Of a stretch of 64,000 nucleotides of DNA, positions 7,630 to 51,220 are shown piece after piece; the first letter of the stretch is position 1; every line of letters begins with the position of its first letter. The notes beneath the pieces were generated by a model. That model ran no database searches. It saw only the letters and a list, made by a program, of their open reading frames with translations, and was not told the origin of the DNA. The translations under genes were made by a program, and so were the position numbers. Origin of the DNA: Haloplanus salinarum (GTDB lineage Archaea > Halobacteriota > Halobacteria > Halobacteriales > Haloferacaceae); contig NZ_CP101823.1 of the NCBI RefSeq assembly GCF_024498175.1, positions 1,984,001 through 2,048,000 on the forward strand, read 5' to 3'.

Positions 7630-7704
7630 GGGTTGGTGGTCTAGCCCGGTTATGACGGCTCCTTCACACGGAGCAGGCCGGCGGTTCGAATCCGCCCCAA
7701 CCCA
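7630..7704 (+). tRNA. tRNA-Val (CAC)
   Basis: This is a 75-nt cloverleaf with acceptor GGGTTGG paired to CCAACCC and discriminator A. The anticodon stem GCTCC/GGAGC has loop TTCACAC, giving anticodon CAC, and the T arm is GGCGG-TTCGAAT-CCGCC. No intron or encoded CCA is present. Three additional copies of its 3' end lie downstream (see repeat 7705-8071). Confidence 0.95.
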
Positions 7705-8071
7705 CTTCTGCCGACGCAACGACGACGAGCGAAGCGAGGAGTCCGTTCGTCGTCGAAGTGGTCGGCGGATTCGGTCCCAGAGGACGAGCGAAGCGAGTCC
7801 TCGCGGTTCGAATCCACCCCAACCCACTCGTTTTCCTGACGTTCCTGAAGGAGGGATGGAACAGGCCGGCGTTCCCGCCGAGCGGAGCGAGGCGGGAGGC
7901 AGCGGACGACCGGCGGGAGTCCGCCAGCGTTCGAATCCGCCCCAACCCACTTCTGCCGACGCAACGACGACGAGCGAAGCGAGGAGTCCGTTCGTCGTCG
8001 AAGTGGTCGGCGGATTCGGTCCCAGAGGACGAGCGAAGCGAGTCCTCGCGGTTCGAATCCGCCCCAACCCA
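7705..8071 (+). repeat. Three tandem tRNA-Val tail units, 122-123 bp each
   Basis: Copies of the tRNA-Val 3' end (GTTCGAATCC through CCAACCCA) finish at 7826, 7949 and 8071, against 7704 in the real gene. This gives spacings of 122, 123 and 122 bp. Units 1 and 3 are identical apart from one base (7816 versus 8061). Unit 2 has the same layout but a different sequence. In units 1 and 3, TGGTC lies 68 bases before the end, exactly where the real tRNA has TGGTC. A hairpin GAGGAC...GTCCTC with loop GAGCGAAGCGA replaces the anticodon arm. In unit 2 the hairpin is CCCGCC...GGCGGG with a GAGCGGAGCGA loop. No protein-coding signal is credible here. Confidence 0.85.
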
Positions 8072-24159: not shown

Positions 24160-24244
24160 GCGTGGGTAGCCAAGCTAGGCCAACGGCGCAGCGTTGAGGG
24201 CGCTGTCCTGTAGAGGTCCGCCGGTTCAAATCCGGTCCCACGCA
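24160..24244 (+). tRNA. tRNA-Leu (GAG)
   Basis: This 85-nt tRNA has acceptor GCGTGGG paired to CCCACGC with discriminator A. The anticodon stem CAGCG/CGCTG has loop TTGAGGG, giving anticodon GAG. The long variable arm TCCTGTAGAGGTCC is typical of leucine tRNAs, and the T arm is GCCGG-TTCAAAT-CCGGT. Its 3' end is duplicated downstream. Confidence 0.94.
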
Positions 24245-24370
24245 TCGCACGGACGCGAACGGACGTGAGCGGCCGGGGATGCACACCCGGGTTCGAATCA
24301 GGGAGAACGCGCGAGCGTTCGACCGTGGTTCAAATCCGGTCCCACGCATCGCACGGACGCGAACGGACGT
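24245..24370 (+). repeat. Duplicated tRNA-Leu 3' end with hairpin tail
   Basis: A 44-bp direct repeat covers 24223-24266 (last 22 bases of the tRNA plus 22 of flank) and 24327-24370, offset 104 bp. The duplicated tRNA end finishes at 24348. Between them is GAACGC-GCGA-GCGTTC (a six-pair hairpin) and another T-loop-like GGGTTCGAATC. The second copy runs into GCGAACG-GA-CGTTCGC (24359-24374), a perfect hairpin that is interrupted in the first copy. The remaining sequence to 24495 shows no gene. Confidence 0.8.
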
Positions 24371-49277: not shown

Positions 49278-49383
49278 TGCTCGGTGGGGGATCCGAACCC
49301 GATTGCGAGACTCGCTATCGCACTCTCGCGTGGTTCAAATTCCGTTCCTGCGCGTGCGTCGTCACTCACTTCGTTCAGAATCA
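49278..49383 (-). repeat. tRNA-Glu tail unit with degenerate copy of the tRNA 3' end
   Basis: On the minus strand a degenerate copy of the tRNA-Glu end (GGGTTCGGATCCCCCACCGAGCA) finishes at 49278, 106 bases past the true end at 49384. Before it is a hairpin TGCGA...TCGCA with loop containing TAGCGAG. No gene is visible here. Confidence 0.65.
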
Positions 49384-49458
49384 TGCTCGGTCAGGGATTC
49401 GAACCCTGGTCGTCGGCTCGAAAGGCCAACATGATTGGCCGGACTACACCAACCGAGC
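49384..49458 (-). tRNA. tRNA-Glu (TTC)
   Basis: This 75-nt tRNA has acceptor GCTCGGT paired to ACCGAGC with discriminator A. The anticodon stem TTGGC/GCCGA has loop CTTTCGA, giving anticodon TTC. The T arm is CAGGG-TTCGAAT-CCCTG. Confidence 0.94.
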
Positions 49459-50849: not shown

Positions 50850-51149
50850 CCCACGGAGGTTCGCTGGGGGGTTCGAACTCCCCGAACCGCTCGCTATGCT
50901 CGCGGTTCTCTACCTCAAATCCGCAGGAGACGCTTTCGCCTCGCAACGCGGCTCGCTGGCTCACGGCGACGGCGTTCGCCATCCCGAGACGCTCACCGGT
51001 CGGCGTCGACGGAAATGCGCTGGCTGGGATTTGAACCACGGTCGTTTCGCTCGCGACGCTCGCTCCACTCCCTGATTCGAATCCGCAGGAGGAGTTTTCG
51101 GACTGCGGAAACGACTCGCTTCGCTCGTCGTTTCGTTGGAGTCCGAAAA
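50850..51149 (-). repeat. Two tRNA-Gly tail units with nested hairpins
   Basis: On the minus strand, copies of the tRNA-Gly 3' end finish at 51016 (134 bp from the true end at 51150) and, more degenerate, at 50850 (another 166 bp). Directly 3' of the tRNA a nested hairpin spans 51095-51149: TTTTCGGACT/AGTCCGAAAA outside and AAACGAC/GTCGTTT inside, with loop TCGCTTCGCTC. A second hairpin GAACCG/CGGTTC encloses CTCGCTATGCTCG around 50882-50906. Segments reading CAAATCCGCAGGAG and CGAATCCGCAGGAG occur once in each unit. No protein-coding gene is credible here. Confidence 0.75.
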
Positions 51150-51220
51150 TGCGCTGGCCGGGATTTGAACCCGGGTTGTGACCATGGCAAGGTCACGTGA
51201 TACCACTACACTACCAGCGC
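51150..51220 (-). tRNA. tRNA-Gly (GCC)
   Basis: This 71-nt tRNA has acceptor GCGCTGG paired to CCAGCGC with discriminator A. The anticodon stem TGACC/GGTCA has loop TTGCCAT, giving anticodon GCC. The T arm is CCGGG-TTCAAAT-CCCGG. Confidence 0.94.

Follow-up and report, generated by a model that had tools for sequence, protein, structure and literature searches.

The tRNA-Val array

The window is a stretch of 64,000 nucleotides from Haloplanus salinarum, whose genome (G000) is a haloarchaeal chromosome of 3.45 Mb in one contig. It contains an intact tRNA-Val(CAC) gene with three tandem units behind it, and every unit closes with a repeat of that tRNA's last 22 nt (7683-7704, nt 52-73). The features are listed below, where R1 is a covariance model of the covarying hairpin of the commonest unit class (class 1), which ends in the tRNA tail.

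7630..7704, + strand: intact tRNA-Val(CAC) (ARAGORN, which gives 7630-7705; Rfam RF00005, 62.1 bits)
7705..7826, + strand: Val unit 1, 122 bp (tail-copy scan, fold, weak R1 match)
7805..7826, + strand: tail copy 1, with 1 mismatch to tRNA-Val
7827..7949, + strand: Val unit 2, 123 bp, a different cassette (cross-genus sequence comparison)
7928..7949, + strand: tail copy 2, base 1 mismatched, remaining 21 identical
7950..8071, + strand: Val unit 3, 122 bp, near-identical to unit 1 (repeat comparison)
8050..8071, + strand: tail copy 3, exact

The array is as an earlier, sequence-only reading described it. The tail recurs three times at 122, 123, and 122 bp, a 145-nt repeat is shared by units 1 and 3 with about one base of difference, and unit 2 has a similar length and an unrelated sequence. 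A direct calculation puts the number of 22-nt matches with up to 1 mismatch expected by chance in roughly 500 bp at the order of 1e-9. Unit 2 shares 87% identity over 101 nt with a unit behind tRNA-Val(CAC) in G020, a member of another genus.

Val unit 1 is made up of a leader hairpin (7710-7766) and a second hairpin, which has an inverted T-arm copy (about 7764-7773) at one end and the tail copy at the other. The inverted arm is not clear in unit 2, nor in several other units. The Val units belong to a core class other than class 1, and R1 is weak on them, with 14.5 bits for unit 1 (E 0.17, 7765-7817) and 17.4 bits for unit 3 (8010-8062). The GAGCGAAGCGA hairpin pointed out earlier is present, but the second hairpin, which is built with the tail copy, is more telling. 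The TGGTC motif at -68, originally compared to a D arm, is also present in units 1 and 3. It sits within the stem of the leader hairpin, and the parallel is thus a coincidence, found in 2 of 117 units surveyed.

Units of the unit-2 type (window 7827-7949 and the tRNA-Val locus of G083, L025) possess a tRNA-Val-like stretch, from anticodon arm to T loop, before the hairpin. The arrangement resembles a duplicated tRNA 3' half with a cassette inserted in its T loop.

Units in the window and in the genome

The window has four tRNAs (Val, Leu, Glu, and Gly), and all of them carry units. The units outside the Val array are the following.

24245..24348, + strand: class-1 unit, 104 bp, behind tRNA-Leu(GAG) 24160-24244 (R1 54.7 bits, E 9e-13)
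49278..49383, - strand: unit of the CACGCGAG class, 106 bp, behind tRNA-Glu(TTC) 49384-49458 (tail-copy scan)
51016..51149, - strand: class-1 unit, 134 bp, behind tRNA-Gly(GCC) 51150-51220 (R1 44.9 bits, E 5e-10)

In the Leu(GAG) unit, hairpin 2 lies at 24287-24339 and the tail copy (24327-24348) is exact. The Gly(GCC) unit has hairpin 2 at 51025-51086 and its tail copy at 51016-51037. The tail copy of the Glu(TTC) unit (49278-49299) is degenerate.

All tRNA genes of G000 were located and scanned. Copies of a tRNA's own tail are found downstream of 18 of the 44, and the earlier suspicion of a systematic tail phenomenon was right. Carriers have one to three copies each; for the first, a downstream distance of 91-142 bp and a mismatch count of 0-1 are typical. 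No own-tail copy was found upstream of any of the 44 tRNAs, and no copy of a tRNA's first or middle 22 nt was found downstream (0/44). As a control, tails of other tRNAs were matched at 3 or fewer mismatches in 16 of 1892 comparisons. R1 scores at least 38 bits at 17 places in G000, of which 16 are class-1 pattern matches. Many tRNAs have no unit.

Units can also lie at a distance from their tRNA. Those with a Gly-TCC tail are found about 19 kb from tRNA-Gly(TCC) (G000:C1:1823880-1843462, L101). They are preceded by an att-like copy of part of the tRNA, which spans the anticodon arm through the 3' end, exceeds every unit tail in length, and is distinct from the units. This partial copy marks the far side of the interval, so an integrative element probably lies in between. 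A class-1 unit with a tRNA-Met tail is found 6 kb downstream of that tRNA (G000:C1:2769824-2776025, L440). At both the Gly-TCC and Met loci, the units were probably separated from their tRNA by the entry of an integrative element.

An orphan array with a 69-bp period is located at G000:C1:2711400-2711700 (L107). It has no tRNA near and follows an apparent tRNA 3' half.

Anatomy of the units

The survey is made up of 117 units. Most are 85-150 bp in length, and a unit starts directly after the discriminator base. A leader hairpin comes first, followed by a long hairpin composed of an inverted T-arm copy (5' arm), a core, and the tail copy (3' arm). The tail copy is a direct copy of nt 52/53-73 of the host tRNA. 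Exact identity with the tRNA covers 21-24 nt in 64 of 84 copies, which places the start at about nt 52/53, and extends only 0-3 nt beyond nt 73 at most loci. Tail copies proximal to the tRNA have a mean of 0.56 mismatches, and distal ones 1.5.

Class 1 is the commonest core, CAGGGA-stem-GACCGTG, with GG/CC pairs, a tandem G.A, an apical stem, and a bulged G. Further cores include CACGCGAG..CTCGCAATCG and CCCAGAGGAC..GTCCTCG, the latter in the Val units. A GTCGCGC..GAGCACGTC module is common to two classes. A kink-turn was considered for the G.A motif and dropped, as inspection revealed no 3-nt bulge beside the tandem G.A.

Some arrays consist of identical tandem units, e.g., four of 118 bp in G083 and units of 144, 144, and 143 bp in G015. 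Behind tRNA-Pro-TGG of G074 (L281) is a pure tandem duplication (85 x 2) that comprises the tail and the native trailer and has no hairpin 2. This duplication is a possible first stage in the birth of an array.

Distribution among archaea

Of about 53 Halobacteriales genomes sampled, 41 have the class-1 pattern, compared with 1 among about 242 genomes from the rest of the phylum. The reversed-pattern control gave 0. In the collection of named genomes, each of the matches listed is in a haloarchaeon. Among these, 117 of 125 units are 81-351 bp behind a tRNA and 93 share its tail with at most 2 mismatches; of the other 8, several are close to the end of the fetched stretch.

Units are found behind tRNAs of about 30 anticodons across Halobacteriales. 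Among all loci assembled, 90 of 217 tRNAs, with 26 anticodons, carry the 117 units. These loci were partly picked by similarity, so only the counts from near-complete genomes are prevalences: 18 of 43-44 tRNAs in G000, 18 of 48 in G074, and 4 of 42 in G024. Where loci were fetched regardless of units, 8 of 31 in other Halobacteriales families had them, and 0 of 30 tRNAs of non-haloarchaeal members of the phylum did. Similar tails at the tRNAs of related genomes, the check proposed for the Val array, are thus strongly present across the order. On these comparisons, the Val array is one case of an order-wide, fast-changing haloarchaeal family.

Viruses were considered as carriers and rejected. 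Of 47 pattern matches on viral contigs, only one (L140) looks genuine, and it is a tRNA-Glu with its unit within what reads like host DNA. Dense extra tRNA genes, some of them low-scoring, are located on a small contig of G377 (C3:5153-14548) and in a 2.6-kb stretch of G116 (C1:2635124-2637763). These clusters are possibly of viral or plasmid origin.

Selection on the fold

The long hairpin was analyzed in 51 distinct class-1 sequences from many genera. Pairing is observed in 94.7% of cells, against 86.9% after shuffling. Two-sided cells number 82, against 25.5 shuffled, and there are 8 two-sided pairs. Sliding the partner strand collapses the signal. The inverted arm is co-adapted to the tail copy of its own unit. 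The total is 342, and none of 2000 shuffles exceeded 309 or reached the values observed at positions 5 and 7.

The fold is also specific to one strand. At its best locus, R1 scores 79 bits in the sense direction and 33 in the antisense direction. Apical stems contain 9 mismatches of the G.U type and 1 of the A.C type, although the counts are small and the sequences related. The sense-strand score and the tolerance of G.U fit an RNA made together with the tRNA. The sense-strand fold is under strong constraint, and the units may function as RNA, in line with the earlier suggestion of processed tail RNAs.

Gain, loss, and exchange of units

Sister species differ by the gain, loss, and shuffling of units, and decayed units are common. 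Of the genomes tested, G024 is the closest (91% across the best stretch of flank), and it has only 4 units left together with decayed remnants. With so few in G024 and so many tRNAs lacking them, no single unit is essential.

Pairs of empty and filled sites are exact at Arg-GCG and Leu-GAG and near-exact at Phe. At Arg-GCG, the flank of G024 aligns, from base one, with the G000 sequence that follows the unit. Leu-GAG offers a series of 12 genomes. Six have the native trailer alone, G378 and G046 have a 104-bp unit and then the native trailer, G000 and G083 have a unit and then a leader-like trailer, and G024 and G074 have the leader-like trailer alone. The lone trailer in the last two reads as the scar of a loss. 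Cassettes are also re-ordered: Arg-GCG has a native flank segment with a partial tail at its end, and units of one kind are found before it in some cases and behind it in others.

Similar cassettes are found at different tRNAs. The core GGTCGCGCGCAGCGAAGCGAGCACGTCC is almost unchanged at Lys, Arg, and Leu tRNAs from different families. The inner units of Leu-TAG in G053 and Lys-TTT in G074 share 85% identity over 92 nt, and each inverted arm fits its own host. In some units the arm fits another isotype and the tail is that of the host, e.g., the tRNA-Glu of G074 with a Lys-type arm. The tail is thus supplied by the host tRNA and not by the cassette. Outside the core, cassettes at different isotypes are at most about 85% similar, so none of the transfers seen is very recent.

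Relation to known systems

The RtT RNA (RF00391) is the closest known kind, represented by the E. coli tyrT repeats and the proK trailer. The Val array was originally believed to match no named system, yet E. coli RtT matches in layout, though not by the Rfam model. Read with the same script, tyrT possesses three 178-bp repeats, each ending in the exact last 19 nt of tRNA-Tyr, and the unit behind proK likewise ends, at +168, in the proK tail without a mismatch. RtT thus has the same layout at different isotypes. At both loci, as in the archaeal units, the long hairpin arises by pairing of the tail copy with an inverted arm, which is GGGGAAGGAT in tyrT and GAGGAT in proK.

The differences are in size, sequence, and prevalence. 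RtT units are bacterial, 168-178 bp long, and have a different core, whereas the haloarchaeal units are 85-150 bp. The copied block is 19 nt including CCA in RtT and 21-22 nt without CCA in haloarchaea. Own-tail copies are found at 3 of 20 E. coli tRNAs examined, compared with 18 of 44 in G000. A cmscan search with RF00391 gave three matches at E. coli tyrT, one at proK, and none in the haloarchaeal units. When the Val array was scanned against Rfam, the tRNA gene was the sole match. RtT is described as an RNA released from tRNA operon transcripts and linked to the stringent response, in a passage of PMC4986893 that cites Bosl and Kersten 1991.

In E. coli (NC_000913.3), argQ has an own-tail copy at +133 with 1 mismatch (L536), and a sub-threshold, truncated RtT match lies on its other side. 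This suggests RtT-like trailers in E. coli beyond tyrT and proK.

The E. coli 3'ETS-leuZ is a tRNA-transcript trailer annotated as a small regulatory RNA. It is a precedent for function at this position, but has no tail copy and no repeat.

In CRISPR adaptation, the repeat is duplicated with each insertion and new copies are added with leader-proximal polarity, which resembles the tail units. Integron attC sites are also similar, as they form folded hairpins with an extrahelical base near G/TT and make up cassette arrays. The likeness to integron cassettes is one of resemblance; the tail units have no ORF and carry a host-tRNA-specific tail.

Casposons likewise insert at tRNA 3' ends, but they are gene-bearing elements with cas1 and generate a 14-15-bp duplication (PMC6977970). 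Compared with the casposon features (cas1, TIRs, and a 14-15-bp TSD), the tail units are too short for a gene and carry neither cas1 nor cargo, and the block they copy covers 21-22 bp within the tRNA.

Archaeal integrative elements and viruses duplicate the 3' part of a tRNA downstream, e.g., in Haloquadratum (PMC3119063). Unlike the tail units, these elements span kilobases and encode an integrase. The two probable cases in G000 are those that displaced units by about 19 kb and 6 kb.

Origin of the units

The tRNA-tail units are neither debris nor pseudo-tRNAs. On balance, the sequence comparisons favor reading them as an order-wide family of structured trailer cassettes, RtT-like in layout, for which recombination through the T arm and tail would be the means of spread and rearrangement. 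The T arm (GGTTCRAATCC) is almost invariant among tRNAs and, with the tail repeats, would provide the recombination anchors. A foreign arm and core would come to lie before the host's own tail through template switching or recombination within the T arm, so that the tail is nearly always that of the host. Tail-to-tail crossing-over would then create, shuffle, and delete units. As far as the sequences indicate, the simplest account of the host-type tails is template switching within the T arm, or recombination there over short homology. In the read-through tRNA transcript, the conserved sense-strand fold may act as an RtT-like trailer RNA. By capturing the tail copy, the inverted arm would keep it from competing with the real T arm. 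The trailer fold may also present a tRNA-like 3' end for processing.

The main rival to T-arm recombination is a recombinase that generates a 21-22-bp target duplication. The units would then be a gene-less mobile element, in line with the earlier suggestion of serial integration by a tiny element, with the cassette inserted at the 3' end of the tRNA gene by a trans-acting enzyme. Candidates are a tyrosine integrase, a casposase or Cas1-like enzyme, and an integron-like enzyme acting on the folded hairpin. The enzyme would recognize the long hairpin, and the tail copy would be its att core or a target-site duplication. Several observations are consistent with such an element, which is a real but minority possibility. 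Empty and filled sites are exact, the host-like tail copy has a sharp boundary (nt 52/53-73), and whole cassettes are common to different isotypes and genera. The freshest copies are tRNA-proximal (0.56 vs 1.5 mismatches), as in polarized insertion, and the inverted arms with their extrahelical G recall integron attC sites. Casposons provide a precedent for integration at tRNA 3' ends, but their 14-15-bp duplications overlap the last few bases of the tRNA only, as opposed to 21-22 bp inside it (PMC6977970). An autonomous partner was not found; a left-arm pattern search of G000 for a long autonomous version of the cassette gave none, and all 10 left arms are complete short hairpins. Among the cassettes compared, no near-identical pair was found within a genome at tRNAs for different amino acids. 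Moreover, the strand bias and G.U tolerance fit an RNA better. A more specific version, a gene-less mobile cassette confined to haloarchaeal tRNA 3' ends whose dedicated recombinase recognizes a T-arm-mimicking hairpin, inserts at any tRNA gene, and duplicates the tail, is a shade less probable still. If true, cassettes inserted in this way would build integron- or CRISPR-like arrays while preserving the tRNA.

Neutral tandem duplication of tail and trailer, by slippage or unequal crossing-over with homogenization by gene conversion, would leave the structure unselected. The pure duplication at Pro-TGG of G074, the identical tandem units of G083 and G015, and the many decayed units are what such a process would yield. 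It cannot, however, create an inverted arm, an invariant CAGGGA/GACCGTG core, or covariation, nor does it account for one core recurring in different families at tRNAs for Lys, Arg, and Leu. The covariation and shared core largely refute this explanation, which is now improbable.

Debris of att sites from serial integrations of ordinary tRNA-targeting elements is highly unlikely. The duplicated block, from T loop to discriminator, is the type of segment used by integrases, and the two probable integrative elements of G000 sit at unit-bearing tRNAs. The integration visible at Gly-TCC differs, however, as it left a copy from anticodon arm to 3' end and displaced the units. The units themselves are too short for an integrase gene, adjoin the tRNA directly, and are mostly 85-150 bp with a conserved architecture in which hairpin 2 and regular spacing are the rule. 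The earlier impression of more than random att debris was right. A role as decoy att site was also considered and is unsupported, since both probable integrations entered on the tRNA side and not at a unit copy.

The least likely explanation, the earlier suggestion of pseudo-tRNAs or tRNA-sized degenerate tRNA genes, draws on the TGGTC of Val units 1 and 3 and the tRNA-like 3' end and is refuted as far as sequence goes, because ARAGORN and the Rfam tRNA model find no tRNA within units, the D-arm motif is limited to 2 of 117 units, and a 7-bp acceptor-strand complement is found in 3 of 117.

Implications for haloarchaeal tRNA genes

The 3' ends of tRNA genes are the main docking sites for archaeal mobile elements. 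Across one order, a large share of tRNA genes bears structured tail cassettes at this position that are missed by tRNA finders and Rfam. No earlier description of haloarchaeal tail repeats was found in the open-access literature (subscription papers are mostly outside this coverage), and as far as checked there, RtT-like tail cassettes are new in archaea.

RtT-type repeats are known from gammaproteobacteria. They have a far richer archaeal counterpart that differs in sequence, and the layout therefore probably arose more than once. Two old questions about RtT are what the RNA is for and how the tail copy always matches its tRNA. With a covariance model, named genomes, and pairs of empty and filled sites, both become directly testable in haloarchaea open to genetic work, such as Haloferax.
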